Of a stretch of 64,000 nucleotides of DNA, positions 1 through 41,347 are shown one piece after another. Origin of the DNA: Rhizobium sp. 9140 (lineage in GTDB: Bacteria; Pseudomonadota; Alphaproteobacteria; Rhizobiales; Rhizobiaceae); NCBI RefSeq assembly GCF_900067135.1, contig NZ_FJUR01000001.1:293501-357500 (forward strand), read 5' to 3'. Each line of letters opens with the position of its first letter. Position 1 is the stretch's first letter. The notes beneath the pieces are model-generated. The model was not told where the DNA came from, did not search any database, and saw only the letters and a program-made list of their open reading frames with translations. The position numbers and the translations under genes were made by a program.

Positions 1-998
1 TTCCGCACCGAATCCTGAACGCGCTTCAGCTCCGACTCCAGTGCCCGCCGCATGCTTTCGGCCTGCGCCTGCGCCGTTTGGAGCTGCGGATGGCGGCTGC
101 CGAGGCTGGTCTGCAACTCCGCCAGCCGGTCGAGCGTCTGCGCATAGCGCGTGCGCAACGTCGTGACCGACGTCTGCTGCAGCGCTTCGGGGATCGCGCC
201 TGAGGCGAGATCGCCCGTCGTGAGAGTGCGAACCTGATTGTAATTGATCTGCTGCTGCTCAAGGGCTGCGCGGGCACTGCCGAGCTGCTGCGTCACAGCC
301 TCGAGTTGCTGGTCGGTCACAAGGCCCTTTTCGCCGGTGCTGATCAGGCCGTTCTGCGTACGGAACTTGACGACCTTGTCTTCGGCTTCGAGCAACCGCT
401 TGCGCAGCTCTTCGGCCTCGACCTGAAGGCTCATGCTGGCCTTGAGGCTCTTGTCGGACCCGATCTTGTTCGCCTTTTCCAGGTAGATCGCCGAGACGGT
501 ATTGGCGATCTCGGCGGCGCGCGCCGCGTTCGGATGCTGGGCGGTGATAGTGAAGACTAGCGACTGGTCGGCACGGGCGATGATAAGGTTCTGTGCGAGC
601 GTCGCCGCAGCGCCCGCCGCTGCCGCCTCTTCCGAAACGGGGGCCGGTGCCGACCGGCCGAGAAGCCGGCCGATCAGTCCCACCTTCGCCTGGAAAAAAG
701 GATCCTCCTGCAATGCGAGCTTGCGCGCGGCCTCGGAGAGAACGCTGAAGGACTGCATGACGTAGATCTGGCTGTCGATCGCCTGCTGCGCCTGTGCCGG
801 TGCGGCGGTATCGCCGGCAGACTGGCCGACGGCGGCAAGCCGCTCCGGGTCGAGCAGGATCTGGGTTGAGGCACGGAACACGGCCGGCTGGCTGAGAACG
901 AAGGCAAACCCCAGGCCACCGAAGATCAGCGCCGTCACGACGACGATGCCGATGCGGCGCATCACGATCGACGGAAGTTGAAAGACGTCGATGTCCAT
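1..998 (-). CDS. Polysaccharide chain-length determinant / co-polymerase (Wzz/GumC family), 5' part only
   Basis: Reading the minus strand from the ATG at 998 gives 332 open codons that run off the left edge, so the C-terminal part is outside the window. The protein begins MDIDVFQLPSIVMRR, has a hydrophobic segment at about residues 12-34 (GIVVVTALIFGGLGFAFVL), then a periplasmic region starting YRAS-like (FRASTQILLDPERL). A long Gln/Glu/Ala-rich coiled coil follows (about residues 190-330, including an SRHPQLQ stretch). This is the layout of Wzz/GumC/ExoP co-polymerases, inner-membrane proteins that set polymer length and join cytoplasm to the outer-membrane export channel. Whether a C-terminal tyrosine kinase domain follows cannot be seen. 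It is divergent from the carrier-protein gene at 1325 and suggests the cluster adjoins an exopolysaccharide locus. Confidence 0.85.
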   Translation of the reverse strand, partial: MDIDVFQLPSIVMRRIGIVVVTALIFGGLGFAFVLSQPAVFRASTQILLDPERLAAVGQSAGDTAAPAQAQQAIDSQIYVMQSFSVLSEAARKLALQEDPFFQAKVGLIGRLLGRSAPAPVSEEAAAAGAAATLAQNLIIARADQSLVFTITAQHPNAARAAEIANTVSAIYLEKANKIGSDKSLKASMSLQVEAEELRKRLLEAEDKVVKFRTQNGLISTGEKGLVTDQQLEAVTQQLGSARAALEQQQINYNQVRTLTTGDLASGAIPEALQQTSVTTLRTRYAQTLDRLAELQTSLGSRHPQLQTAQAQAESMRRALESELKRVQDSVR

Positions 999-1324: not shown

Positions 1325-1573
1325 GTGAAGACACAGATCCGTGAGATGCTTGCCCAATATGCCTCCCTGCCCTCGGCAGCCGGTCTGGACGACGATGCGG
1401 ACCTCTATGCAGCCGGCATGTCGTCGCATGGCTCGGTGCAGCTGATGCTGGCGCTCGAAGACACGTTCGATGTCGAGTTTCCCGACAACCTCTTGAACCG
1501 CAAGTCCTTCTCCACGATCGCCATCATCGAGCAGACGGTCAACCAGCTGGTGGCCGGGAAAGAAGCCGCCTGA
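1325..1573 (+). CDS. Acyl-carrier-protein-like aminoacyl carrier protein
   Basis: An 82-residue acidic protein with a GTG start 7 bases after AAAGGAG. Aligned with E. coli ACP, the segment GMSSHGSVQLMLALED matches the 4'-phosphopantetheine site, with Ser34 in the position of Ser36 of AcpP. The DSL motif is therefore replaced by SSH. Helix 2 (SVQLMLALED) and the FDVEFPDNLL loop are typical of the fold. The stop overlaps the next start (TGATG at 1571-1575), so it is co-translated with the dehydrogenase. Stand-alone carrier proteins of this kind beside a class II synthetase-like ligase accept an amino acid on the thiol of the prosthetic group (Bradyrhizobium and Agrobacterium systems). I infer this protein is the acceptor for the ligase at 2761. 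It is not the housekeeping AcpP. Confidence 0.85.
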   Translation: MKTQIREMLAQYASLPSAAGLDDDADLYAAGMSSHGSVQLMLALEDTFDVEFPDNLLNRKSFSTIAIIEQTVNQLVAGKEAA

Positions 1574-2754
1574 TGGACGTCGCCCTCAACGCTCAAGGAT
1601 CGACGCTGCTGGAGCGCGCCCGCCGCGTGGCCGGCATCGCCGGCCAGCACGCCGACGACGTGGACCGCAATGCCCGCTTCCCGCGCGAAGCGGCGGATGC
1701 CCTGATCTCGGAACGGCTGCTGTCGATCCAGATCCCCGTCACGCTGGGCGGAGAGGGCGCGACGACCGCCCAGATCGCGGAAGTCTGCACCGTTCTCGGC
1801 CAAGCCTGCTCCGCCTCTGCCATGGTCTTCGCCATGCACCACATCAAACTGTCGAGCCTCGTATCCCACGGCATCGACAGCCCCTGGCACCAGAGCTTCA
1901 TGCGCCGCATCGTTGACGAACAGCTTCTCATCGCCTCGGCGACGACGGAAGGCGGCATCGGCGGCAACATGCGCAATTCGATCTGCGCCATCGAGATCGA
2001 CGGGGATACCTGTCGGCTTCAGAAGGACGCGACGGTCATTTCCTACGGCCGCCATGCGGACGCGATCCTCATCACCTCCCGCGCCCATGCCGATGCCGTG
2101 ACGACCGACCAGGTCATGACCGTATTCACGAAGGATCAGTATACACTCGAGCGCACCAACGAATGGGACACGCTCGGCATGCGCGGCACCTGTTCGGAAG
2201 GTTATCTCTTCAAGGGCGAGGCCCCGAAGGAACAGATCCTGCCGAAACCTTTCGCGGAGATCGCGGCGCAATCCATGCTGGCAAGCTCGCACCTGCTCTG
2301 GGGCGGCGTCTGGTACGGCATCGCGGTCAATGCGATGACCCGCGCCCAGGCTTTCGTGCGCGCCGCAGCCCGCAAGAGCCCCGGCCAGACACCGCCCGGC
2401 GCGCTTCACCTCGCGGAAGCCTCCAGCCTCCTGCAACAGGTCCGCGCCAACGTCACGGCCGGCCTTGCCCGCTATGAGGCAGCCCTTGCCGAGCCGGAAC
2501 TGCTCTCCTCCATGGGCTTCTCCGTCGCGATGAACAACGTGAAGATCGCAGTCTCCCGGACCGTGCCGCAGATCATCGACCACGCCATGCAGATCACCGG
2601 CATCATGGGCTATAAGAACGGCACCCCGTTCTCGCTCGGACGCCACCTGCGCGACGCACAGTCCGCGCAGCTGATGATCTCCAACGACCGCATTCTCGCC
2701 AATACGTCGAACATGCTTCTCGTCAACAAGATTGAAACCAACCTTCTGGGGTAA
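1573..2754 (+). CDS. Acyl-CoA dehydrogenase-like flavoprotein
   Basis: 393 residues, the usual acyl-CoA dehydrogenase length. It has an N-terminal helical domain (RFPREAADALISERLLSI, then CTVLGQACSASAMVFAMH), a middle beta domain with the TTEGG..GN substrate/FAD region and the WDTLGMRGTCS segment, and a C-terminal helical bundle. It is translationally coupled to the carrier protein and followed after 6 bases by the amino acid:carrier-protein ligase. Family members oxidise Calpha-Cbeta bonds of acyl-CoA, but a subgroup (PltE/RedW type) oxidises aminoacyl groups, namely prolyl, held on carrier proteins. The gene order makes a carrier-protein-bound substrate plausible here. That is inference; I did not assign the catalytic base. 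Ordinary fatty acyl-CoA oxidation is less likely because no beta-oxidation genes are near. Confidence 0.8.
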   Translation: MDVALNAQGSTLLERARRVAGIAGQHADDVDRNARFPREAADALISERLLSIQIPVTLGGEGATTAQIAEVCTVLGQACSASAMVFAMHHIKLSSLVSHGIDSPWHQSFMRRIVDEQLLIASATTEGGIGGNMRNSICAIEIDGDTCRLQKDATVISYGRHADAILITSRAHADAVTTDQVMTVFTKDQYTLERTNEWDTLGMRGTCSEGYLFKGEAPKEQILPKPFAEIAAQSMLASSHLLWGGVWYGIAVNAMTRAQAFVRAAARKSPGQTPPGALHLAEASSLLQQVRANVTAGLARYEAALAEPELLSSMGFSVAMNNVKIAVSRTVPQIIDHAMQITGIMGYKNGTPFSLGRHLRDAQSAQLMISNDRILANTSNMLLVNKIETNLLG

Positions 2755-2760
2755 CCGACC

Positions 2761-3669
2761 ATGGATATGCAGCTTTCCTTGCTTGACCGGCTGTTTGCGG
2801 CCGGCCTCCTCATCGACACCGGCGTCGATGGCCTTTACGGCCGCAGCGGCGTGTTCGAAGACGTCATCACCCGCTTCGAAGCCGTCATCGATGGCCTCGG
2901 CGGCGTCGACAAGCCGGAGGCGATCCGCTTCCCGCCCGGCATGAACCGCGCCCATTTCGAAGGCTCGGGCTACATGAAGAGCTTTCCGCAGCTCGCCGGC
3001 ACCATCCATTCCTTCTGCGGCTGCGAGCTCGACCATGTCAGCCTGCTGACCTGCATGGAAGAGGGCAAGGACTGGACCGGCCAGCAACAGGCGACCGACA
3101 TCGTTCTGACGCCTGCCGCCTGCTACCCGCTCTATCCGACGATCGCCAAGCGTGGCGCCCTGCCAGCCGGCGGCGGCCTCTTCGACCTGCAGTCCTACTG
3201 CTTCCGTCATGAGCCGTCGAAGGAGCCGACCCGCATGCAGCTGTTCCGCATGCGGGAATATGTCCGCATGGGCAAGCCGGCGGACGTCGTCGCCTTCCGC
3301 CAGGATTGGATGGAGCGTGGAACCAAGCTGATGGAATCGGTCGGCCTGCCCGTCGAGATCGACGTCGCCAACGACCCCTTCTTCGGCCGCGCCGGCAAGA
3401 TGTACAAGAACAACCAGCGCAACCAGAACCTCAAGTTCGAGCTGCTGATCCCCGTCAACGCCAATGCCGGCCCGACCGCCTGCATGAGCTTCAACTACCA
3501 TCAGGACCATTTCGGCAAGACCTGGGGCCTGACGACGGACGACGGCGAAACGGCGCACACCGCCTGCGTCGGCTTCGGCCTGGAGCGCATCGCGCTGGCG
3601 CTCTTCAAGCACCACGGCCTCGACGTGAACGAATGGCCGGCACACGTCCGCAAGACGCTCTGGGGCTGA
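2761..3669 (+). CDS. Amino acid:[carrier protein] ligase (class II seryl-tRNA synthetase-like)
   Basis: 302 residues consisting only of an atypical SerRS catalytic core; the N-terminal tRNA-binding coiled coil is absent. Class II motif 2 is FRHEPS (Arg149) with the downstream FRMREYVR, and motif 3 is [12 protein letters not shown] (Arg276). Cys121, Glu166 and Cys269 have the spacing (45 and 103) of the zinc ligands of characterised Bradyrhizobium/Agrobacterium homologues as I recall them; in these enzymes zinc binds the substrate amino group. The family activates a small amino acid (glycine or alanine in studied cases) with ATP and loads it on the phosphopantetheine arm of a carrier protein, not on tRNA. 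The carrier is presumably the product at 1325. It lies 6 bases after the dehydrogenase and 6 bases before the DUF1839 gene. Amino acid specificity cannot be read here. Confidence 0.9.
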
Positions 3670-3675
3670 TCGACC

Positions 3676-4644
3676 ATGCAAGCCGTCTTTCCCGGCATCG
3701 TGCCCGAGACCTATCGCCCGCATGCGCTCCACGACAAGGAGCGCATGTGGCCGGAGACCAACTGCTACATCGATCTCTGGATCGAGGTCTTGAACACACT
3801 GGGCCTGCCGCCGGAAGCCATGCTCGGCTTCACACTGACGCAGGACTTCGAGGGCGACCAGTTCACCTTCTTCAAGGTGCCGCTGGAGGACCTCGAAGCG
3901 CTCTACGGCATCACCTGCACGGAACTTGCCATCTTCGACAAGGTCGAACGGCATCTGGAGACCCAGATCGCCCGCGGCCGTCTCTGCCTCGTCGAGATGG
4001 ACAGCTTCTTCATGCCCGACACCGCGGGCGTCGCCTATGGCCGCGAACACGGCAAGACGACGATCGGCATCAACCGGCTGGACGTGGCCTCGCGCAGCCT
4101 CGACTACTTCCACAATGGCGGCTTCTTCCATCTGGAAGGCGACGATTTCGACGGCCTGTTCCAGACGCTCGGACACCCGGCGGCGCTGCCGCTCCTGCCC
4201 TATACCGAATTCGCCAAGCTGCCGGCCGTGCTGCCGGACGAGGCGCGCATCCGGGAGAAGGCGCAGGCGCTGCTGGCCTTTCACTTCGCCCGCCGCCCGC
4301 AGGACAACCCGTTTCGCGCCTTTGCCGCCGTTTTCCCGGCGCAGGTTGAGGCTCTGGCCAGCCGCGACTTCGATTTCTTCCACAAGTACGCCTTCAACAC
4401 GCTTCGCCAGTTCGGCGCGAATTATGAACTGCTCGCCACCCATCTCGGCTGGCTTGCACCGGACGGTCTCTATGAGGCGGAACGGCTCGCAGCCCTGAAG
4501 ATCTCCGAGGTCGGCAAGACCGTGCAGTTTCAGGTCGCCCGCGCCGTCAACCGCAAGAAATTCGACGCTCTGGCCGGTACGCTGACGCCGGCCGCAGAGG
4601 CTTGGGATGCTCTGATGCAAGGGCTGGCGGCAAAGCTCGCCTGA
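3676..4644 (+). CDS. DUF1839 family protein
   Basis: 322 residues, matching the DUF1839 family that recurs beside amino acid:carrier-protein ligases in rhizobia; no biochemical function is known to me. Conserved-looking segments include HALHDKERMWPETNCYIDLW near the N-terminus, FTFFKVPLEDLEALYGI, VEMDSFFMPDT and HGKTTIGI in the middle, and a helical C-terminal half rich in Arg/Phe (FRAFAAVFPAQVE, FDFFHKYAFNTLRQFGANYELL). There is no signal peptide or membrane segment, so it is cytoplasmic. It sits 6 bases after the ligase in the same operon. A role in taking or handing on the carrier-bound aminoacyl group is an inference from context. Confidence 0.75.
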   Translation: MQAVFPGIVPETYRPHALHDKERMWPETNCYIDLWIEVLNTLGLPPEAMLGFTLTQDFEGDQFTFFKVPLEDLEALYGITCTELAIFDKVERHLETQIARGRLCLVEMDSFFMPDTAGVAYGREHGKTTIGINRLDVASRSLDYFHNGGFFHLEGDDFDGLFQTLGHPAALPLLPYTEFAKLPAVLPDEARIREKAQALLAFHFARRPQDNPFRAFAAVFPAQVEALASRDFDFFHKYAFNTLRQFGANYELLATHLGWLAPDGLYEAERLAALKISEVGKTVQFQVARAVNRKKFDALAGTLTPAAEAWDALMQGLAAKLA

Positions 4645-4685
4645 TCTCGCATCCGCCGACGACAGACAGGAAACCTCAGGACATC

Positions 4686-7148
4686 ATGACAACGCTGCCC
4701 GGCCGCCTTCGTCTCGTGGATGCACGCTCCCTGACGCAAGGCTGGCGCCTCGTCCTGACGCCCCCGGGGCTTCACGTCGATCCATCGACGCTCGCCGAGG
4801 ACGACGGCATCCCCGCAACCGTGCCCGGCACCGTGGCCGGAGCACTGGAGGCGGCGGGCCTGTTCGATCGCACAGCCCCGGAGCCGCTGAACGGGCAGGA
4901 TGCCTGGTTCGTGACCGTCATCGCGGATGAGCCGCCGGGTGACGCCATTCTCCGTTTCCAGGGTCTTGCGACCCTTTCCGACGTTTTTCTGAACGGCGAA
5001 AAGATCCTGTCCTCGCAGAGCATGTTCACGCGCCACGACGTCTCCGTGCGCCTGACAGGCAACGACCGGCTGGCGATCTGCTGCCGGGCGCTCCTGCCGC
5101 ATCTGTCGCGCAAGCTGAAGCGCGCGCGCTGGCGCACCAAGATGATCGTGCCTGCCGGCCTGCGCGGCATGCGCACGACGGCGCTCGGCTACATGCCCGG
5201 CTGGTGTCCGGAGATCCACGCGGCCGGCCCCTATCGTCCCGTCATGCTTGAGCGTAGCGGACAGACGTCCGTCAGCGCCGTCGATATCGCTGCTTCGCTC
5301 GATGCCGACGGCACGGGCCGCCTGAACGTCCGCTTCGAGACGACGGTGGCGGGGGCGATCCGGCTGCGCTGCGCCGGCCACGAGATCCCTGTTCTGGTTG
5401 AGAACGGTCGCGTGGAGGCCACGCTTGTCCTGCCCGGCATCACCCCATGGTGGCCACGCAGCCATGGCGAACCGGTGCTCCACGAGGTCGAAATCCTCAT
5501 CGGGGAGGATCGTCTCACGCTGGGCCGCACCGGCTTCCGCCGGATCGAGATCGACCGGGGCACCGATGGCACGCGGTTCGCCCTGAAAATCAACGGCGTC
5601 GGCGTCTTCTGCCGGGGCGCCGTCTGGACCAATGCCGACATCGTGGGCCTGCCGGGAACGCGGGAAGCCTACGCGCCGTGGCTGCGGCTCGCGGCAGACG
5701 CCAACATGAACATGATCCGCATCGGCGGAACCATGACCTACGAGAGCGCCGCCTTCTTCGCGCTCTGCGACGAACTGGGACTGATGGTCTGGCAGGATGC
5801 CATGCTCGCCAATTTCGACTATCCGACCGAGGACGAAGCCTTCGCCGCCCTGCTGCGCGAGGAGATCGAGACGCTGCTGAAGGCAACCCGCGCCTCGCCC
5901 TCGCTGACCGTCTTCTGCGGCGGTAGCGAAATGCACCAGCAGGCGGCGATGATGGGTCTCGCGGAGCGGGTGTGGTCAGGCCCGCTGACCGGCACCATCC
6001 TGCCGGGCATCGTGGCCAGCGAGCGGCCTGACATCGCCTATGTCCCCAATTCGCCATTCGGCGGCGCACAGCCCTTCTCGCCGAATGCCGGCGTCGGCCA
6101 CTACTACGGCGTCGGCGCCTATGAACGGCCGCTCGAGGATGCGCGCCGCGCCGATGTGAGCTTCGCTGCCGAATGCCTCGCCTTTGCCAATGTGCCGGAG
6201 CAAGCGACGCTCGATGCGCACCTGCCCGTCGCCCCCGTCCACGATCCCCGATGGAAGGCCCGTGTTCCCCGCGACCGCGATGCCTCATGGGATTTCGAGG
6301 ATACGCGCGACCACTATCTGGGCCGCCTCTACGATCTCGATCCAGCCCGGTTGCGGCGGGAAGACCCCGCACGCTATCTCGACCTGTCGCGTGCGGTCAC
6401 CGGCGAGGTGATCGAAGCGACGTTCTCCGAATGGCGGCGCGCGGGCTCAGCCTGCGGCGGCGCGCTGGTCTGGACGTTCCAGGATCTGCTCGCCGGGGCC
6501 GGCTGGGGTCTCGTTGACGCCACGGGCCTGCCGAAACCCGTCTGGCACGCCATCCGCCGCGCCTTCCGCCCCGTTCAGGTGCTTCTGCTGGATGAGGGAA
6601 CGAACGGCCTCGACATCCACCTCGTCAACGAGACGGCACGCGACGAGACGGTGCGGCTGGAAATCACCTGCCTTCGCGCAGGTCGCCGGCCGGTCATCTC
6701 CGGCCACCACGAAACCATCCTGCCGGCACGATCGAGGCAGCGCCTGCCGGCAACCGATCTCTTCGGCGCGTTCTTCGACACGACCTATGCCTACCGGTTC
6801 GCCGGTCCGCAGCATGACGTGACAGTCGCCCGCCTCGTCTTGGCGGGAACGAATACCCTCCTTGCCGAAGCCTTCGACTTCCCGCTCGGCCGCCGCCCGG
6901 CGATCCACGATGCAACGCTGATGGCGACCCTGATAGAAACAGATGAAGACTTCGCGCTCGATATCGCAACCGACCGCCTCGCCCAGTCCGTGCACATCGC
7001 CTGCCCCGGCTTCCTGCCGTCGGACAATTGGTTCCACCTCGCGCCCGGCGCCGCGCGCCGCATCCACCTCGTGCCACAATCGGAGACGCCGGCGAGGCCC
7101 TCCGGTGAGATCGCCGCCATCGGAAGCGCCCTGCCCGTCCATTTTTGA
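4686..7148 (+). CDS. Glycoside hydrolase family 2 protein, beta-mannosidase-like
   Basis: 820 residues from the ATG at 4686, which follows CAGGACATC; an in-frame upstream extension overlaps DUF1839 and is not used. The N-terminal jelly-roll domain contains VPGTVAGALEAAGLFD and the TLSDVFLNGEKIL segment typical of GH2. A beta-sandwich follows (WWPRSHGEP, FRRIEIDRG), then a TIM barrel with ANMNMIRIGGTMTYE and LCDELGLMVWQDAMLANFDYP. The likely acid/base is the Glu of CGGSEMHQQ and the nucleophile the Glu of SFAAECLAF. The usual Asn before the acid/base is Ser (SE for NE), so activity should be tested. No signal peptide is visible. It is the last gene of the aminoacyl-carrier operon, suggesting that a mannoside-like glycan is made, trimmed or recycled with it. 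Confidence 0.8.
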   Translation: MTTLPGRLRLVDARSLTQGWRLVLTPPGLHVDPSTLAEDDGIPATVPGTVAGALEAAGLFDRTAPEPLNGQDAWFVTVIADEPPGDAILRFQGLATLSDVFLNGEKILSSQSMFTRHDVSVRLTGNDRLAICCRALLPHLSRKLKRARWRTKMIVPAGLRGMRTTALGYMPGWCPEIHAAGPYRPVMLERSGQTSVSAVDIAASLDADGTGRLNVRFETTVAGAIRLRCAGHEIPVLVENGRVEATLVLPGITPWWPRSHGEPVLHEVEILIGEDRLTLGRTGFRRIEIDRGTDGTRFALKINGVGVFCRGAVWTNADIVGLPGTREAYAPWLRLAADANMNMIRIGGTMTYESAAFFALCDELGLMVWQDAMLANFDYPTEDEAFAALLREEIETLLKATRASPSLTVFCGGSEMHQQAAMMGLAERVWSGPLTGTILPGIVASERPDIAYVPNSPFGGAQPFSPNAGVGHYYGVGAYERPLEDARRADVSFAAECLAFANVPEQATLDAHLPVAPVHDPRWKARVPRDRDASWDFEDTRDHYLGRLYDLDPARLRREDPARYLDLSRAVTGEVIEATFSEWRRAGSACGGALVWTFQDLLAGAGWGLVDATGLPKPVWHAIRRAFRPVQVLLLDEGTNGLDIHLVNETARDETVRLEITCLRAGRRPVISGHHETILPARSRQRLPATDLFGAFFDTTYAYRFAGPQHDVTVARLVLAGTNTLLAEAFDFPLGRRPAIHDATLMATLIETDEDFALDIATDRLAQSVHIACPGFLPSDNWFHLAPGAARRIHLVPQSETPARPSGEIAAIGSALPVHF

Positions 7149-7167
7149 CACCCACAGCGTGTGACGA

Positions 7168-8961
7168 TCACGATGCCTTGCGTGTGGCGGAAGCGATTGC
7201 GAGGATCGTATCGCGGATGTGCTCGCGCAGTTCGCGCCGGGCCTTGGGCGGCGTGACATTGTGGTCCGCATCGGCCAGCAGGATCCGCGAGACGTTCGGA
7301 TACCGCGCTAGAAGCTGGCCGTCCCGTCCAAAATGCTGGGACAGCCGCGCAAGGCCGATATCGCCTTCGCTGTAGACGAGCGAGATAGGCACATGACGGT
7401 CGCGCAATTGCCGGAACGCGCGGTGCACGCCGTTGCGCAGCCGCGCTTCGACCGACAGGGAACCGAGCACCGGGGCTGCCGTCCGCGAGACGCGGCGCGC
7501 GACGATCTTCAGGATATTGCCGGCGGCGCGGGGGACGTCGATCTTGCCCGAAAACAACCTGTAGGCCGTTTCCATGCGAAGAGCGCGCCGCTTGTAGTCG
7601 TCGAGCGAGCGGGGATTGTAGCGGATCATCTGATCCACATCGTCGCGCGGGTCCCAGGCGAAGGTCAGGATATTGATCGCGATGACCCCGCGGCACCGCG
7701 GATCGGCCAGTGCCGCGTTGAACGCAAGGTAGGCCCCGCTGCATCGCCCGACGAGGACGGGATCGGGCAGGCCGATGGCCTCGATACGATCGAGCGCGGC
7801 GCGCACATCGGAAATCTGTCCAGGCGAATAGAGCACCTGCCGGTCGCCCTCCGGCACCGGCGGGCTGTCGGCGATGCCGGCGGCATCGAACCGGAAGGAG
7901 GCGATACCGGATGCAGCCAGCATGCGCGCCGTCTCGACGGTCGAGCGCGCCCAGCCGGACTGCCGGTCGTAGCCGGTGCCGAGCAGCAGGGCAGTGCCTG
8001 AGGGAACGGCATCGGCCGGCGTGCAGAGGATTCCGAACAGCCGGTCGCCGGCGCCGAACCGCATCGGACATTCGATGAAGCCACCACCATCAACGACGCC
8101 GGAAGAGGGTGCCCCCCGCCCGGCATCCGCCTCGACCCCGAGCGGATCGAGCCCGAGGATCCAGTGGGTCAACGCCCGAAAGACCGTAACGGGCGTCTCG
8201 GCGATGGTCGGGTTCGACACGAGATCGGAATAGCCCTCGAAGACGATCCGGGTGACATCGGCACCCTCTGCCTGCAATTGAACTGCAAGTGCCCCATCGG
8301 CATCCGACTGCGGCCGTTCCGCAAGGAAAAAACGCGTCGATCCCGCCGGCTTGAACGCCTTTGCATCCGCGCTGCGCACGGCGGCGGCAACGCTGTCCTC
8401 CATCACCAGACCGGCAATGGACGTGCCTGGACCACCACTGCCGGGCGGCAGGCCCAATCCTTCGTCCACGACCTTTGCCCAAAGCGAAAGCTCACGCAGA
8501 TACCGCCGCCCACTCGTGACAGGGGCGAGAAGCGCGACGCCCGCAAACAGAAATGAGGGTTCATTGGCCTGCAGCAGGTCCGGAACCGGGAGCGATCCGA
8601 ACCCCTGCGCCACCACCACCAGGCGATCAAGCCCGGCGAGATCGCGAAGGCATCGCGCAGCGGCCAGCGCCGTCGTCGTGAAGGGTTCGAGACCCGAAGA
8701 TTCGGACAGGTCGAGTGCATCGCCTGTGCCGGGATGGTCGTAGCGCAGGCTGGCAATGCCGGCATCGGCAAGGCTATCAGCAAACTCGCGCCACGCCTTG
8801 TGCACGCAAAGCTCTTCCAGGCCCCAGGGGCTGATAAACAGAACGGCGGCACGCGTTAAAACCCCTTGTGCCGGCGTGAAGAGGCCAACGGTGTTCTCGA
8901 ACGTGACCGGCCGACCGGCAGGACGGGGCATCTGGGTGGCATCCACGCTGGCGGCAGTCAT
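7168..8961 (-). CDS. Two-domain alpha/beta hydrolase, exosortase-associated-hydrolase-like
   Basis: 597 residues from the ATG at 8961 (a GTG at 8991 could add 10). It holds two tandem alpha/beta-hydrolase domains. Domain 1 (about 15-270) has LFISPWGLEELCVHKAWREF and SLRYDHPGTGDA, but its nucleophile elbow reads AQGFGS, with no Ser or Cys, so it looks non-catalytic. Domain 2 (about 290-590) has LLLGTGYDRQSGWARS, SFRFDAAGIADS and an elbow GRCSGAY, which places Cys at the nucleophile position as in dienelactone hydrolases. ADADHNVTP near the end can supply the catalytic His. The gene ends 20 bases from the GH2 gene, convergently. A thioesterase or acyl-transfer role on the carrier-bound product is plausible but inferred. 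Confidence 0.75.
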   Translation of the reverse strand: MTAASVDATQMPRPAGRPVTFENTVGLFTPAQGVLTRAAVLFISPWGLEELCVHKAWREFADSLADAGIASLRYDHPGTGDALDLSESSGLEPFTTTALAAARCLRDLAGLDRLVVVAQGFGSLPVPDLLQANEPSFLFAGVALLAPVTSGRRYLRELSLWAKVVDEGLGLPPGSGGPGTSIAGLVMEDSVAAAVRSADAKAFKPAGSTRFFLAERPQSDADGALAVQLQAEGADVTRIVFEGYSDLVSNPTIAETPVTVFRALTHWILGLDPLGVEADAGRGAPSSGVVDGGGFIECPMRFGAGDRLFGILCTPADAVPSGTALLLGTGYDRQSGWARSTVETARMLAASGIASFRFDAAGIADSPPVPEGDRQVLYSPGQISDVRAALDRIEAIGLPDPVLVGRCSGAYLAFNAALADPRCRGVIAINILTFAWDPRDDVDQMIRYNPRSLDDYKRRALRMETAYRLFSGKIDVPRAAGNILKIVARRVSRTAAPVLGSLSVEARLRNGVHRAFRQLRDRHVPISLVYSEGDIGLARLSQHFGRDGQLLARYPNVSRILLADADHNVTPPKARRELREHIRDTILAIASATRKAS

Positions 8962-9062: not shown

Positions 9063-9977
9063 TCAGACCTGTGGCGAGACGTGTTTGAGAACGGTCTGCG
9101 GCGCCGCATTTCGGGGAGGTGCGGTACGCCACCCTTGCAGGCGGCCGAGCAGCAAATGTCGCGAACGGCGTGCCATCGCCCCGTCGCCCTTCAGGCCGTA
9201 AACGAGGATACCGGCCAGCGGTCGAAGGATTTCCGGCAGGAACCGTCGCATCGAAAAACCGTGTCGCCGCAGCACATAGCCAAGCCCGGCACCGTAGCGG
9301 TACATCTTCTGCGCATTCTCGCGCGTCCGCCGATCGCCATGGTCTTCGGGATGATGGGCCGTGAGTGTCGGATAATACCGTCCGCTCGCGCCTGTCTCCA
9401 GGCATTTGAGCACCATATCCTGGACCTCGTGTGCACCCCAGATCGTGCCCGACCCCGGCCCGAGCGCCGCATCGAACCCGCCTGCGGCCTCGAATACCGG
9501 TTTCCGCACGACCACGATCCACTCCATCAGCGTATTCCAGACCGTGTCCCGCGTGAGCGCCGTCGGCTCTGTTGCAAAGCTTCCCATGATCGTCCGCCCA
9601 TCGGGCGCCGTCGGCCGGCCGCTATAGATGTCGGCGGGTTTCGACGCCATCAGTGCCTCCAGCGTCCGGAAGAATTCGTCGGGGTACCAGCAATCATCGT
9701 CCGGAAACATCAGCCAGATGCCGCGCGCCCGCGCCGCGCCGCGGTTTCGCGCGCGACAGACGCCCTTTTCGTCCGAGCGGATATGGACGATGTCGATCTC
9801 TTGGGAAAACCGCGCGAGAAGCGGCACGAGTCGGTCGTCACCGTTCTGATCGACGAACAGAACCTCGAGATCCCCACGTTTTTGGGCGAGGAGCGACAGC
9901 AGAAGGCGCTCGATCTCATCGACCCGCCCAAGAGTTGCTACGACGAGGGAAAAGCGATGTTGCAGTGGTCCTTCCAC
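9063..9977 (-). CDS. GT2-family glycosyltransferase
   Basis: 304 residues with a GTG start at 9977 preceded by GGGAGG at 6 bases, which decides the start; the frame stays open for 29 more codons to a TTG without a good ribosome site. It is a GT-A fold: FSLVVATLGRVDEIERLL opens the domain, then VLFVDQNGDD and GVCRARNRGA. LMFPDDDCWYPD is the DxD-type metal/nucleotide-sugar site, and WGAHEVQDM supplies the ED-like acceptor region. The C-terminus (about 240-304) is Arg-rich and hydrophobic (FLPEILRPLAGILVYGL), perhaps membrane-associated. It transfers a sugar to a polysaccharide or lipid-linked acceptor. The stop is 102 bases from the hydrolase start and they probably share transcription. Confidence 0.85.
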   Translation of the reverse strand: MEGPLQHRFSLVVATLGRVDEIERLLLSLLAQKRGDLEVLFVDQNGDDRLVPLLARFSQEIDIVHIRSDEKGVCRARNRGAARARGIWLMFPDDDCWYPDEFFRTLEALMASKPADIYSGRPTAPDGRTIMGSFATEPTALTRDTVWNTLMEWIVVVRKPVFEAAGGFDAALGPGSGTIWGAHEVQDMVLKCLETGASGRYYPTLTAHHPEDHGDRRTRENAQKMYRYGAGLGYVLRRHGFSMRRFLPEILRPLAGILVYGLKGDGAMARRSRHLLLGRLQGWRTAPPRNAAPQTVLKHVSPQV

Positions 9978-10095
9978 GTCGAACCTCCCGATCCGCCAAA
10001 GGCGCGGATGCCGTAGCGTCCGCCCCTGAGGGCGGCTGCATCCGGAATAGGCCAAATTCTCCAATAGCCGATTAATGGCGGCGCGAAAAAGCCGC

Positions 10096-32549: not shown

Positions 32550-35500
32550 ATGAATGTTCATTCGCTTGCCGAAGCACACACACCTGTCATCACGCCGCCG
32601 CGGATCTACTACGTCCACCCCTTGCAATTGCGAGGGATGGAAGCGTGGGACGCGGCCTTTGCGCATGCTGCAACGCTTGGTTTCGACACGGTGCTATCGG
32701 CGCCCGTCTTCCAAAAGGGCGATGCAACCAGCGTGTTCGTCACGGCCGACTTCGAAAAGCTGAGCCCGGAGCTTGGGCTTGGCGAGAGCGTCGAGGACGG
32801 CCTGTCGGCTCTGGTCGATGCCGCGCAGCGACATGGCCTTTCCCTGATGCTGGATATCGTCGTCGGACGCGAGGCGGATACGCGTTCCGACGCCGGCGCT
32901 CCCGTCGATCCGCGTATCTCACCCACCGTCGCCGGCAGCCGCACTGTCCGCGCACATGACCCGGATTCGGAAGCCACGCTGATTACCACATGGACGGATC
33001 GTATTCAGAGGCTTGCCGACGCCGGTGTCAGCGGCTTCCGTTGCGTCGGCCTTGCCGCCATACCGGCGGACGCATGGCGGACGCTGATCTCGAACGTTCA
33101 TCAACGTCAGCCGCACGTCCGCTTTCTCGCCTGGACGCCAGGCACGACCTTCGATGACCGCAGGACCCTGGCCGAAGCCGGTTTCGAGGGCAGCTTCTCA
33201 TCGCTCGCCTGGTGGAACCTCAGGGATCGCTGGCTCCTTGATGAATACGAACTTCAGCGGAATTTCGCCTACCAGATCGCCTTTCCCGAAGCGCCATTCG
33301 CAAAGCGCATAGCCCATGGCACGGAGAGCGGCGAAATCCTGAAACGGCGTGCCATACGCACGCTTGGCCTCTCCGCGACGATCGGCCAGGGCATCCTGAT
33401 CCCGATGGGCTTCGAGTTCGGAGCATCGACACCGCTAGATCCGATGCATGGTCATGGCGGCGGCATTCGCGGTCTGAAATCCCTTGGTGCCTTTGACATC
33501 TCCTCCGAGATACGGTCCCTCAACGAACGGCTGGCTGCCGCGATACCGTCGGCTGCAACGCCGCTGACCCTCATTGCCGGCAGCGCGACATCCGTGAGCG
33601 CGCTCGTACAGGGCGACCATGCGGACCTTCGTCAGGCCGAGACCGTGCGCGTGATCATCTGCAACCGCGATCTTCGCCGCAGTGCCGCAGCACCGTTCAA
33701 TGCGATCCGCGAGGCGGCATCCGCCTTCCTGCCGCTGTGCGATATCGCCCGGCCCGAACGCGCGCTCGATGCCGATGTGCGGCTTGCACCGGGCGAGCTG
33801 CGGATTTTCGAGGGCACGGCCTCCAGGCCGATCCTCATGGCAGGTGCCGCGATGGATGCGCGCGCCGCTGCGGATACGCCACGTCTGGCCATCGAGAAGG
33901 TATCGCCGGCAGTTGACGAAGGCCGCTTCCCGGTAAAGCGCGTCGTCGGCGATGTCGTGAAGGTGAAAGCTGATATTTTCGGCGACGGCCATGACCCGCT
34001 GGCAGCCGTGCTCCTCTGGCGTCCGGTGGATGCGCAGGAATGGACCGAAGTGCCGATGCAGTTCGTCGTCAACGACCACTGGAAAGCGGAATTCACCCTG
34101 AAGCGCATGGGGCGCCACGAATATGTCGTGGAGGCCTGGCGCAACCCCTACGCCATTTTCCGCTACGAACTCGGTAAGAAGCATGAGGCCAATCTCGACC
34201 TGACGCTGGAGATCGAGGAAGGCATCAACCTCATCAAGGCCGCGCAGGGGAATGGTCCCCAGCGGGTTCAACCCGAGTTGAAGGCGCTTCTGGCGATGCT
34301 CGCCGACGAGGATGCCGACGCGAAGACCAAACGGCTGCTCGCACCGGAAACCTTTTCGCTCATGGCCCGCGCAGACCGCCGGCCCTTCAGCGTCCGCTCC
34401 GCCGTCATCCCCGTCGATGCCGAGCGGAAGGCAGCTGGTTTTGCCAGCTGGTTTCAGGTCTTCCCTCGCTCGCAAAGCGGCGATGCGAACCGCCACGGCA
34501 CGTTCGACGATGTCATCGCCCGGCTTCCCGCCATTCGCGAGATGGGCTTCGACGTCCTCTACTTCCCGCCGATCCACCCGATCGGCGCCACGAACCGCAA
34601 GGGCCGCAACAACACGCTGACGCCCGGCACGAACGATCCCGGCAGCCCTTACGCCATCGGCTCGCCGGAGGGCGGGCATGATGCGATCCATCCGGAACTC
34701 GGCACGCTCAAAGATTTCCGCAGGCTGGTCGCGGCGGCAGCCGATCACGGGCTCGAAATCGCGCTCGACCTCGCCATCCAGGCTTCGCCGGATCATCCCT
34801 GGCTGAAGGATCACCCCGGCTGGTTCGACTGGCGATCCGACGGAACGATCCGCTATGCGGAAAACCCGCCGAAGAAATACGAGGACATCGTCAACGTCGA
34901 TTTCTACGCGAAGGACGCCGTGCCATCGCTATGGGAGACGCTGCGCGACGTCGTCCAGCATTGGGTCGATCAGGGCGTCAAGCTCTTCCGCGTCGACAAT
35001 CCACACACCAAGCCGTTTCCCTTCTGGGAATGGATGATCGCCGATATTCGCGGTCGTCATCCCGAAGTCGTGTTCCTGTCGGAAGCCTTTACCAAGCCGA
35101 AGGTCATGTATCGACTGGCCAAGGTCGGTTTCTCGCAATCCTACACCTACTTCACGTGGCGAAACGCGAAGTGGGAGCTTGAGGAGTATATGCGGGAGAT
35201 CACGACAGAGGCGCCGAAAGACTTCTTCCGCCCGCACTTCTTCGTCAACACGCATGATATCAACCCGGATTTTCTACAGAACGCACCGCGTTCGGCCTAC
35301 CTGATCCGCGCCGCCCTTGCCGCGACCCTTTCGGGTCTCTGGGGCGTCTATAACGGCTTCGAGCTCTGCGAAGGCCGGCCGGATGCCAAGCGCAAGGAAT
35401 ATGCCGACAGCGAGAAGTACGAGATCCGGGCATGGGACTATGACCGGCCGGGCCATATCAAGGGCGAAATCGCGCTTCTGAACCGCATCCGCCGCGAAAA

Positions 35501-35798
35501 CCCGGCGCTGCACACGCATCTCGGCCTGACGCTGCTGCCCGCCTGGAACGACAATGTCATGTTCTTCGAAAAGGCCAGTGCCGGGCGCGAGAACGTGCTG
35601 ATGATCGCCATCAGCCTCGATCCTCACACCGCACAGGAAGCGGATGTCGAAGTGCCGCTCTGGTCATGGAACCTTCCCGACAACGGATCGCTTCCCATGG
35701 AAGACCTCATTGCCGACCGGGCCTTCACCTGGACGGGAAAGATACAACGCATCCGCCTCGATCCGTCGATGCCGTTCGGCATCTGGCGGGTTCGATAG
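32550..35798 (+). CDS. glgE: Alpha-1,4-glucan:maltose-1-phosphate maltosyltransferase with N-terminal extra amylase-like domain
   Basis: 1082 residues, against roughly 660-700 for actinobacterial GlgE. The first 430 residues form an extra GH13-like region ([46 protein letters not shown]) lacking an evident full catalytic triad. From about 445 the usual GlgE begins: a beta domain ([19 protein letters not shown]), then the GH13_3 barrel with [20 protein letters not shown], nucleophile Asp816 in [15 protein letters not shown] and Glu845 in [21 protein letters not shown] and NGFELCEG are also family signatures. It extends alpha-glucan from maltose 1-phosphate. It is followed by treS-mak (13-base gap) and glgB, giving the whole trehalose-to-glycogen route. 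Confidence 0.94.
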   Translation: [1082 protein letters not shown]

Positions 35799-35810
35799 GG
35801 AGGAACCGAC

Positions 35811-38800
35811 ATGGATATGCTGACCGATCAGATGCAGGACGACAGTGGCACCCGCCCGCAGACCCACGCCGAAAGCGGCTCCTCGGACCCGCTATGGTAT
35901 AAGGACGCCATCATCTACCAGCTGCACATCAAGTCGTTCCATGACGGGAACGGCGATGGCATCGGCGACTTCAAAGGCCTGCAGGAGAAGCTCGACCACA
36001 TCTCCTCGCTTGGCGTCACCGCGATCTGGCTGCTGCCGTTCTTCCCGTCGCCGAGACGCGACGATGGCTACGATATCGCCGACTATGGCGATGTCAGCCC
36101 CGACTACGGCACGATGGACGAATTCCGCGCCTTCGTGGATGCCGCCCATGAGCGGGGAATTCGTGTCATCATCGAGCTGGTCATCAACCACACCTCCGAT
36201 CAGCACCCCTGGTTCCAGCGCGCCCGCAATGCGCCGGTCGGCTCCCCGGAGCGCGACTTCTACGTCTGGTCGGATACGGACCAGAAGTTTCCGGAAACCC
36301 GCATCATCTTCCTCGATACCGAGAAATCCAACTGGACCTGGGACCCGGTCGCCGGCGCCTATTACTGGCACCGGTTCTATTCCCACCAGCCGGACCTGAA
36401 CTTCGACAATCCACAGGTTCTCGAAGAGCTGTTGTCCGTCATGCGCTTCTGGCTGGAGACGGGCATCGACGGCTTTCGGCTGGATGCCATCCCCTACCTG
36501 ATCGAGCGCGAGGGGACCAACAACGAGAACCTAGCCGAAACCCACGACATCCTGAAGCAGATCCGCGCCGCGCTTGACGCGAGCCATCCCGGCCGCATGC
36601 TGCTCGCCGAAGCCAACCAGTGGCCGGAAGATACCAACGAGTATTTTGGCGATGGCGACGAATGCCACATGGCGTTCCACTTCCCGCTGATGCCGCGCAT
36701 GTACATGGCCATCGCCAAGGAAGACCGCTTCCCGATCACCGACATCATGCGCCAGACGCCCGATATTCCGGACAATTGCCAATGGGCGATCTTCCTGCGC
36801 AACCATGATGAGCTGACGCTCGAAATGGTGACGGATGCCGAGCGGGACTATCTCTGGAACATCTATGCCGCCGACCGCCGCGCCCGCATCAATCTCGGCA
36901 TCCGCCGTCGCCTTGCGCCCTTGATGGAGCGCGACCGCCGCCGCGTCGAGCTGATGAACGCGCTGCTGCTTTCCATGCCCGGAACGCCCGTCATCTATTA
37001 CGGCGACGAGATCGGCATGGGCGACAACATCTATCTCGGCGACCGCGACGGCGTGCGCACGCCGATGCAGTGGTCGCCGGATCGCAATGGCGGCTTCTCG
37101 CGCGCGGACCCCGCCCGCCTCGTCCTGCCGCCCGTCATGGATCCGCTCTATGGCTATGAAGCCGTGAACGTCGAAGCACAGTCGGCCGATGCCCATTCGC
37201 TCCTGAACTGGACACGGCACATGCTGGCGCTCCGTCGTCGCCACATCGCCTTCGGCCGTGGCGCGCAGCGTTTCCTGAAGCCCGGCAACCGCAAGATCCT
37301 TGCCTATCTCAGGGAATATGACGGCGACACGATCTTGTGCGTCTTCAACCTCTCGCGCCTGCCGCAGGCCGTCGAGCTCGATCTCTCGGAGTTCGAGAAC
37401 CGCGTGCCGATCGAACTGACCGGCATGTCGCCCTTCCCGCCCATCGGCCAGCTCACCTATCTTCTAACCCTGCCGCCCTACGGCTTCTTCTGGTTCCAGC
37501 TCGTCGCGGAAGCGGATGGCCCGACCTGGCGCAATGACCCGCCGGAACAGCTGCCCGATTTCGCGACCATGGTGCTGCGCCGCGACCTCCTCGAGGTGGT
37601 CGAGCAGCCGCGTCTGTCGAGCGTCCTGTCGCGCGACGTTCTTCCCTCCTATCTCGCCAAGCGCCGCTGGTTCGGCTCGAAGGGCGAGACGCTGCATAGC
37701 GCCAAGATCGTCAGCGCCGTGCCCATGGGCTTCCCGCACGACATCCTGCTCGGCGAACTCGAGGCGGAACTTGAAGGGCATACAGAAACTTACATGCTGC
37801 CGCTCGCGATCGCCTGGGATGACGCCAACCCGCCGGCTCTCGCCCAACAGCTGGCGCTTGCCCGTCTGCGGCAGGGTCGTCGCGTGGGCTTTCTGACGGA
37901 TGGCTTTGCAGTCGAAGCATTTGCCCGCGGCGTCCTCAAGGGATTGCGCGAACGCACCCAGATCTCCGGACGCAGCGGCACACTGGAGTTCATTGGAAGC
38001 GATCAGCTTGATGGCATCGACGTGCGCGACGATCTGCCGATACACTGGCTGTCGGCCGAGCAGTCTAACAGCTCCCTGATCGTCGGCGATATCGCGATGG
38101 TCAAGCTCATCCGCCACATCTTTCCGGGCATCCACCCGGAAGTGGAGATGACGCGCTATCTGACCAGCGTCGGCTACGCCAACACTGCACCGCTGCTTGG
38201 CGAGATCGCCCGCATCGCGCCGGACGGCACGCGCTCGACGCTGATCATCGTTCAGGGCGCCATTCGCAATCAGGGTGACGCCTGGACCTGGATGCTCAGC
38301 ACCCTGCGCCGCACGCTCGACGACACGCTGACCTCCGTTTCCGACATCGCCCCCACAGACGTGCAGGAAGGCCTGTTCTCGCCGCTGATGGACTTCGTCT
38401 CGAATGTCGGCACGCGTCTCGGCGAACTTCATGTCGCCTTGGCGAAACCGACGGAGGATGAGGCCTTCGCCCCTGTTCGTGCCGGGACGCACGACGTCGA
38501 AGACCTGCGCCGTCAGGTGATCGGCCAGATTTCGGACGGTCTCGACATTCTCGACGGCGCACGTCGCGACATCGATCCGGCGCTTGGCGGCGAGATCTCC
38601 AGGCTGATCGAAGAGCGCGAGACCTTGTTCGCCTCCATCGGCGCGCTTGCAGATCGTGCAACGGACACGCTCATGATCCGCAACCACGGTGATTTTCACC
38701 TGGGCCAGATCCTCGTTGCGGAAGCTGATGCCTATCTCATCGACTTCGAAGGCGAGCCGGCCCGGAACCTCGACGAACGCCGCGCAAAGACCAATCCCCT

Positions 38801-39145
38801 GCGCGATGTCGCCGGCCTGTTGCGGTCGCTGAGCTACCTTGGTGCAACGGCCGAACTCGACAATGAGGCGGTGACCGACCCGAACGACGACAGACGGACC
38901 GTGCTCATCCGCGCCTTCATCGAGAAGGCCGAGGCGGCATTCCTGTCGAGCTACTTCACGGTAACCGAAACGTCGGATCACCTGCGCATGCCGGAAGCGA
39001 TCCGCACGCAGATCCTCGACCTCTTCCTCTTGGAAAAGGCGACGTACGAAATCGCCTACGAAGCCCGCAACCGGCCGAAATGGCTGCCCATCCCGCTCGC
39101 TGGCTTCTCCGCCATCGTCCGCCGACTTTCGGAAAGTAACGCCTG

Positions 39146-39146
<1 letters not shown>
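35811..39146 (+). CDS. treS: Trehalose synthase / maltokinase fusion
   Basis: 1111 residues; ATG preceded by GGGAGG. Residues about 20-560 are a GH13 trehalose synthase: [30 protein letters not shown], nucleophile Asp225 in FRLDAIPYL, Glu267 in LLAEANQW and Asp333 in [10 protein letters not shown]. Residues about 610-1111 are a maltokinase (Pep2-like): [16 protein letters not shown], the catalytic [13 protein letters not shown] and metal-binding [16 protein letters not shown] with a [15 protein letters not shown] tail. The fused enzyme turns trehalose into maltose and then, with ATP, into maltose 1-phosphate, the GlgE substrate. The fusion is common outside Actinobacteria. The stop overlaps glgB (TGATG). 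Confidence 0.96.

Positions 39147-41347
<2,201 letters not shown>

Follow-up and report, generated by a model that had tools for sequence, protein, structure and literature searches.

A conserved gene module with a SerRS-like carrier-protein ligase and DUF1839 in Rhizobium sp. 9140: a possible route to amides without a nonribosomal peptide synthetase

Six genes near one end of a 64,000-nucleotide stretch of Rhizobium sp. 9140 DNA (contig NZ_FJUR01000001.1, positions 293,501 to 357,500; hereafter the window) encode a carrier protein, a flavoprotein with the acyl-CoA dehydrogenase fold, a ligase resembling seryl-tRNA synthetase (SerRS), a DUF1839 protein, a glycoside hydrolase family 2 (GH2) protein and a two-domain alpha/beta hydrolase (Table 1). 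This module is real, widely conserved, noticed earlier and uncharacterised. We put it at close to an even chance that it constitutes a carrier-protein-based line for amide synthesis, free of any nonribosomal peptide synthetase (NRPS) and working by the steps set out below, a scheme built on the observed gene set and order, the predicted fold of DUF1839 and the conservation of active sites. A route from amino acid to sugar amine is not newly proposed for this gene set. In a note added in proof, Iyer and colleagues (2010) linked a SerRS paralogue, an acyl carrier protein (ACP), a monooxygenase/dehydrogenase, the uncharacterised Atu2574 and a glycosidase, and they predicted that the amino acid becomes amide-linked to a sugar amine, probably with monooxygenation as the role of the redox enzyme (PMC2922099). 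From gene order, we infer that Agrobacterium Atu2574 is a DUF1839 protein. New here are a mechanism that the predicted fold suggests for DUF1839, reasons to doubt a PltE-like oxidation step, loci outside polysaccharide clusters and a parallel for the hydrolase. In the open-access literature searched, no experiments on the module as a whole came to light, which is no proof of absence.

In the proposed scheme, the ligase would adenylate a small amino acid (glycine or alanine, as in its relatives) and load it onto the phosphopantetheine of the carrier protein. The flavoprotein, which lacks the usual catalytic Glu, would oxidise the carrier-bound amino acid, most likely at nitrogen, by an N-hydroxylation comparable to that of ChmG on carrier-bound proline. 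DUF1839 would then take the group onto Cys30 and pass it to an amine, probably that of an amino sugar, much as CcbD acts when lincosamides are made. The hydrolase, with its Cys nucleophile, might edit or release the thioester or perform a second transfer, and the GH2 enzyme might trim or process the sugar-bearing product. The acceptor in the source genome would probably be a precursor of the neighbouring Wzx/Wzy polysaccharide, and in lineages without polysaccharide neighbours it may be a free glycoside. The most specific outcome, an N-hydroxyaminoacyl (or oxime or nitroso) amide on a glycan or glycoside, formed by SerRS-like loading of glycine or alanine, N-hydroxylation and DUF1839 condensation with no NRPS, is in our estimate unlikely. 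To our knowledge, no bacterial sugar decoration of the N-hydroxyaminoacyl type has been reported; if true, this route would supply the SerRS-derived carrier-protein ligases with the role they have so far lacked.

The arrangement that an earlier reading of the letters had described, six genes with close junctions and a convergent hydrolase, was confirmed by open reading frames and family matches. The junctions from carrier protein through flavoprotein and ligase to DUF1839 measure -1, 6 and 6 bases, the flavoprotein ATG overlapping the carrier-protein stop by one base. The GH2 start was set at the ATG at 4686, 41 bases past DUF1839 (the mechanical frame begins at an upstream TTG, 4602), and the hydrolase, on the minus strand, converges on GH2 across a 19-base gap. 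The ligase, scanned against genome contigs, led to 38 loci outside the source genome, and the first five genes keep one order and one strand in 36 of them, with median gaps of -1, 5, 2 and 11 bases (38-locus set, start codons chosen by script). Since this order and strand are kept so widely, the six-gene arrangement is not a product of chance. The two exceptions are L037, where the contig ends within DUF1839, and L036, where carrier protein, ligase, DUF1839 and GH2 stand together and the flavoprotein and hydrolase lie upstream on the opposite strand. Of the 36 ordered loci, 25 have a convergent hydrolase gene and four have it on the plus strand (about 4 kb off in L019); it was not found in seven, one of which (L005) ends within GH2. 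Gene order is thus conserved in relatives, as had been anticipated, for the first five genes, and less uniformly for the sixth. All six genes occur on plasmid records of Rhizobium rhizoryzae, two Azospirillum and Mycetohabitans, and the first five on plasmid records of R. leguminosarum and Caballeronia. Among 289 alphaproteobacterial genomes, source genome included, the ligase exceeds its cut-off in seven, and DUF1839 is present in four, all within those seven.

Residue counts given below refer to the initially collected loci, later additions being excluded, after removal of identical sequences and short copies. Flavoprotein rows were kept if longer than 370 amino acids (aa), and rows for the carrier protein, ligase, DUF1839, GH2 and hydrolase if they exceeded 85% of query length and 60 bits. 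Duplicate loci of the source genome (L001, L043, L056) were left out and the window copy was used.

The ligase scored 512.4 bits on NF005479 (cut-off 357), was the sole match to this family in its genome, and matched the Bll0957 structures 3mey (E 1.1e-92) and 4h2w (E 1.9e-96) over residues 13-300. At 302 aa, it matched the class II core only, with no tRNA-binding domain. Cys121, Glu151 and Cys269, which we take to be the zinc ligands, are kept in 107 of 107 homologues. In the carrier protein, Ser34 (codon 1424-1426), the predicted phosphopantetheine site, is kept in all 73 aligned homologues. The family scores and the Bll0957 match support the prediction of a SerRS-like ligase with a carrier protein of its own. 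Characterised SerRS-like ligases load glycine or alanine, and Bll0957, Bll6282 and Atu2573 were reportedly studied by Mocibob (2010, 2013) up to the loaded carrier protein. The role of these ligases, described in 2010, is called unknown in the relevant passage of a 2022 review (PMC9437257). In a table published in 2024, bll0957 and the adjoining bll0958, termed an acyl-CoA dehydrogenase, have a fold change of 3.0 in a phaR mutant (PMC10888616); these relatives are therefore expressed.

DUF1839 is predicted to be an amide-forming acyltransferase that depends on a Cys and on a carrier protein. In its predicted structure, the overall fold matches that of the condensing enzymes CcbD, CtaG and AziU3, which supports the earlier suggestion that this protein may hand the aminoacyl group on. 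Mutants of CcbD C19 and CtaG C11 are named in entry titles, and Cys30 of DUF1839 likewise lies near the N-terminus and is present in 77 of 78 homologues. DUF1839 has been given as a Cys-Thr/Ser-His family in which the His has moved (PMC10318531); Thr128 and His146 fit this triad, and His125 too is kept (76/78). When a 34-sequence DUF1839 profile was searched against PDB chains, CcbD, CtaG and AziU3 were not among the four matches obtained at E up to 10. Homology to BtrH (PF14399) was also considered, but the profile comparison was weak (hhalign probability 3.9%, E 0.011, 25 columns), and the idea gave way to the CcbD fold match; no BtrH entry appears among the fold matches listed, which excludes nothing. 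One DUF1839 copy (L098, 2410-3393) carries Arg for the catalytic Cys and Ala for Thr128, although this copy is surrounded by carrier-protein, flavoprotein, ligase and GH2 genes (L137, same genome).

The 2010 proposal as written, that DUF1839 joins an amino acid to a cell-surface sugar amine after monooxygenation of the aminoacyl group, is the parent of our scheme and does not exclude it. It was stated, in the note added in proof, for Agrobacterium Atu2574 (PMC2922099), and the fold match of DUF1839 now supplies it with a mechanism. However, the module also occurs outside surface-polysaccharide loci and the type of oxidation is not settled, and we would place the proposal in its original form somewhat under an even chance.

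The surface link itself holds in the source genome. GumC, a Wzy-like protein (named by position, with no Pfam match), GH5, a family 4 glycosyltransferase (GT4) and a flippase lie to the left of the module (L040) and a family 2 glycosyltransferase (GT2) to the right, which places the module within a Wzx/Wzy-type polysaccharide locus. Elsewhere, 25 of the 38 loci have one or more polysaccharide-family genes, GH5 not counted, within about 10 kb. By contrast, no polysaccharide-synthesis gene is listed, in gene tables that are incomplete, for two Azospirillum stretches and the Caballeronia stretch; the similarly incomplete table for Mycetohabitans has only aminoarabinosyl transferase-like and lipoteichoic acid (LTA) synthase-like genes, some kb off. 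The surface-polysaccharide link of the earlier reading is partly supported: it holds for the source genome and the 25 loci, whereas in Azospirillum and the Burkholderiales the module lies outside such loci; the link seems common but not required.

These exceptions bear on a further explanation, that the product is a diffusible small glycoside or peptide-like metabolite and the rhizobial polysaccharide neighbours are incidental. All six genes lie outside Wzx/Wzy-type loci in Azospirillum and Mycetohabitans, as far as their gene tables go, and 13 of the 38 loci, some of them short or truncated, have no polysaccharide-family neighbour besides GH5. Furthermore, the Priestia and DUF1839-less relatives described below resemble small metabolite clusters, and CcbD makes an antibiotic. 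Against this stand the flippase, glycosyltransferase or GumC neighbours of the other 25 loci and of both flanks in the source genome, the position of a distant Tsukamurella ligase within a polysaccharide cluster, the two Mycetohabitans genes a few kb off, and the absence of an exporter from the conserved set. We regard a diffusible product as plausible without holding it to be the probable outcome. In Caballeronia, a gene for a TonB-dependent receptor lies on the opposite strand, one small gene from GH2 (plasmid L127, 16895-19135), which may be a sign that the product of this lineage binds metal.

For the flavoprotein, we tentatively favour N-oxygenation of the carrier-bound amino acid, a reading to which we give a little less than an even chance. 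Pfam places Acyl-CoA_dh_N and Acyl-CoA_dh_1 above cut-off and the middle domain below it. The catalytic Glu occupies one position in the medium-chain acyl-CoA dehydrogenase (MCAD) family and another in the isovaleryl-CoA dehydrogenase (IVD) family. Among 90 distinct homologues, the MCAD-type column holds Ile (88) or Val (2) and the IVD-type column Ser (66), Ala (16), Thr (5) or Cys (3), and none of the 90 has the catalytic Glu at either. As controls for the alignment, Glu was found at the MCAD column in four of four acyl-CoA dehydrogenases of the same genome and at the IVD column in ten of ten IVD-like proteins. The latter were the ten best-scoring loci of a search of 150 genomes for the prolyl-dehydrogenase family, IVD-like by motif; nothing in that search exceeded the cut-off, and the module flavoprotein scored 39.3 bits on NF045652 (cut-off 650). 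Prolyl-carrier-protein dehydrogenases (PltE, RedW, AnaB and Bmp3 are examples) rely on a catalytic Glu, according to the chalkophomycin study, where ChmG is described as an annotated acyl-CoA dehydrogenase, KijD3-like and with Met replacing Glu, that N-oxygenates carrier-bound proline in vitro (PMC10849742). The PltE-type oxidation first suggested for the module is not supported, given the absence of Glu at both known positions, in an alignment that held no confirmed PltE-type sequence, and we abandoned PltE-like desaturation as the leading reading for this reason.

Fourteen residues are invariant in 90 of 90 flavoproteins: His89, Ser122, Thr124, Glu126, Ser157, Tyr158, Trp198, Arg204, His240, Trp243, Trp247, Met368, Asn371 and Arg373. 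Across a set of 20 rows, KijD3 and DnmZ also have Trp198, whereas two short-chain acyl-CoA dehydrogenases (SCADs) and five IVD-like controls do not; the same holds for Met368, where one SCAD has no letter. Position 239, Ser in KijD3 and DnmZ, is variable in the module flavoproteins. A single-sequence search of the PDB returned 3m9v and 4kcf (KijD3) and the nitrososynthase 3mxl as best matches. In a fold search with the predicted structure (pLDDT 86.8), oxygenases and dehydrogenases tie.

Several results weigh against N-oxygenation. The dehydrogenase rows agree with the module in Glu126, where KijD3 and DnmZ have Asp; nine of the ten IVD-like proteins agree with it in His89, where these two N-oxygenases have Gln. 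A profile search of the PDB placed 7p98 and 9w60 first and 3m9v third, and the dehydrogenase 7p98 also lacks Glu at both columns. In a tree of 20 rows (11 from the module, those of 15 chosen that the set contained; KijD3 and DnmZ included, ChmG not), the module flavoproteins form a group of their own (100/99), apart from dehydrogenases and N-oxygenases, and do not group with KijD3 or DnmZ. Because 7p98 lacks the Glu as well, PltE-like desaturation was retained as a rival, within the broader possibility that the flavoprotein performs some form of dehydrogenation, which we consider doubtful. The enzyme would then be a true dehydrogenase with an unusual base, converting alanyl-carrier protein to the dehydroalanyl form, or oxidising the C-N bond to an imine and so giving a pyruvyl or glyoxylyl group for transfer by DUF1839; we rate this version as doubtful too. 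Besides the leading profile matches and the shared Glu126, it draws on the acyl-CoA dehydrogenase fold throughout the protein, on ColB1, which by its entry title dehydrogenates carrier-bound cysteine, and on a Priestia relative beside an alanine permease and racemase, alanine having a beta carbon. It must contend with the loss of either Glu in all homologues, with the invariant His240 in place of the Arg of the controls, and with Trp198, Trp243 and Trp247, which are unlike the controls. Moreover, should glycine serve as substrate in any lineage, alpha-beta desaturation could not take place there, since glycine has no beta carbon.

The GH2 protein is similar to the beta-mannosidase 5n6u (170.9 bits), and its predicted catalytic pair, Glu415 and Glu496, placed by alignment to beta-mannosidase 2vjx, is kept in 48 of 48 homologues. 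The double hydrolase looks like a fusion of the hydr2-hydr1 pair of exosortase-A loci: residues 27-158 are TIGR03101-like (28.3 bits, cut-off 202.75) and residues 304-584 TIGR03100-like (73.2 bits, cut-off 168.45). Gly405-x-Cys407-x-Gly409 and His567 are present in 40 of 40 homologues, and the N-terminal elbow lacks Ser or Cys in 39 of 40, leaving a nucleophile (Cys407) in the C-terminal domain only. Hydr1 (TIGR03100) exceeded its cut-off in six of 150 genomes. These six loci hold an ACP (6/6), hydr2 (6/6), a pyridoxal phosphate (PLP) decarboxylase (6/6) and an AMP-forming ligase (5/6), and hydr1 has the Gly-x-Cys elbow in all six; NCBIfam names were checked on L178 and L182 proteins and the L180 hydr1, and the ACPs were matched to one another rather than to a family. 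Two unrelated activating enzymes thus accompany an ACP and this hydrolase pair, an association that suggests action on carrier-bound groups, by hydrolysis or transfer.

More distant loci show what the module is built around. We compared 46 genomes with an above-cut-off ligase, source genome included, these being the best-scoring and not an even sample. The flavoprotein adjoins the ligase in 45 and DUF1839 is present in 35. Ten ligases (44-49% identity) have the flavoprotein and no DUF1839 in the locus, and for nine of them DUF1839 was not found in the wider DNA around. In four of these nine (L061, L062, L135, L136), a Cys/Met-metabolism PLP enzyme and a homoserine O-succinyltransferase-like gene adjoin the set (Pfam names checked for L062 only), which suggests another product from the same carrier-bound intermediate. 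In genome G131 (L060, 5527-10443), carrier protein, ligase and double hydrolase occur without flavoprotein, DUF1839 or GH2, possibly a minimal form of the module. A Priestia megaterium plasmid (L126, 10142-18689) has genes for a holo-ACP synthase, carrier protein, flavoprotein and ligase; after them come a transporter, an ATP-grasp enzyme and a thioesterase-domain protein, and the run ends with the alanine permease and alanine racemase, with comX and a polyprenyl synthetase upstream. It looks like an uncharacterised cluster for an alanine-derived metabolite, and its setting points to alanine as substrate. A Tsukamurella plasmid (L125, 8719-19442) has a distant ligase (46%), a carrier protein and a phosphopantetheinyl transferase amid polysaccharide genes, with no flavoprotein listed. 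Given such varied settings, the core consists of carrier protein and ligase, joined in nearly all cases by the flavoprotein, and it combines with varying downstream enzymes, DUF1839 being the partner in the set studied.

Table 1. Genes of the module and its immediate neighbours (window positions).
Feature	Coordinates	Strand	Family matches and remarks
Carrier protein, 82 aa	1325..1573	+	PF00550 33.2 bits; NF005480 100.9 bits, cut-off 72
Acyl-CoA-dehydrogenase-fold flavoprotein, 393 aa	1573..2754	+	PF02771, PF00441
Amino acid:[carrier protein] ligase, SerRS-like, 302 aa	2761..3669	+	NF005479
DUF1839, 322 aa	3676..4644	+	PF08893 435.8 bits, cut-off 22.5
GH2 protein, beta-mannosidase-like, 820 aa	4686..7148	+	PF22666, PF17753
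Two-domain alpha/beta hydrolase, 597 aa	7168..8961	-	above two Pfam cut-offs
GumC/Wzz-like chain-length protein (neighbour outside module)	1..998	-	continues into upstream locus L040
Family 2 glycosyltransferase (neighbour outside module)	9063..10064	-	PF00535 72.8 bits

The GumC/Wzz-like frame clusters with L007 6198-8321, which itself matches PF13807 and PF02706. Opposite the genes for carrier protein, flavoprotein, ligase and DUF1839, an open frame of 1071 aa runs on the minus strand (1405-4620), probably as a mere consequence of GC-rich codon use. Farther along the window (32550-41347), a GlgE-like maltosyltransferase, an alpha-amylase-family enzyme with a maltogenic C-terminal domain and the branching enzyme GlgB stand in a row and constitute a GlgE-type glucan pathway.

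Taken up again, the 2010 neighbourhood prediction becomes a specific and testable scheme, in which DUF1839 is cast as a CcbD-type amide former and the 'dehydrogenase' may be an N-oxygenase. If true, it would link a relative of tRNA synthetases to the decoration of sugars with oxidised amino acids across many bacteria that live in soil or with plants, and a Pfam domain without known function would acquire one. As described in their note, the set of Iyer and colleagues shares with the module the ligase, ACP, redox enzyme, uncharacterised protein, glycosidase and polysaccharide neighbours, whereas the fold and residue evidence, the loss of Glu, the hydrolase parallel and the loci outside polysaccharide clusters belong to the present analysis. 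In the Bll0957, Bll6282 and Atu2573 systems, ligase and carrier protein fall into the families seen in the module, and bll0957 likewise has a putative acyl-CoA dehydrogenase beside it; DUF1839, GH2 and the double hydrolase are additions of the module. ChmG and KijD3/DnmZ resemble the flavoprotein in being acyl-CoA dehydrogenase-like without the catalytic Glu, ChmG also in having a carrier-bound amino acid as substrate, although the module flavoprotein differs from KijD3/DnmZ in its separate branch and at Glu126 and His89. CcbD/LmbD, CtaG and AziU3/U2 share 10-14% identity with DUF1839 and probably order their catalytic residues differently, and, compared with lincosamide synthetase-type systems, the loader of the module is a SerRS-like ligase. 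Finally, exosortase-A loci likewise place an alpha/beta hydrolase pair, hydr1 with its Gly-x-Cys elbow, beside an ACP, but there hydr1 and hydr2 are separate genes accompanied by an AMP-ligase and a PLP decarboxylase, whereas in the module they are fused and accompanied by a SerRS-like ligase and a flavoprotein.

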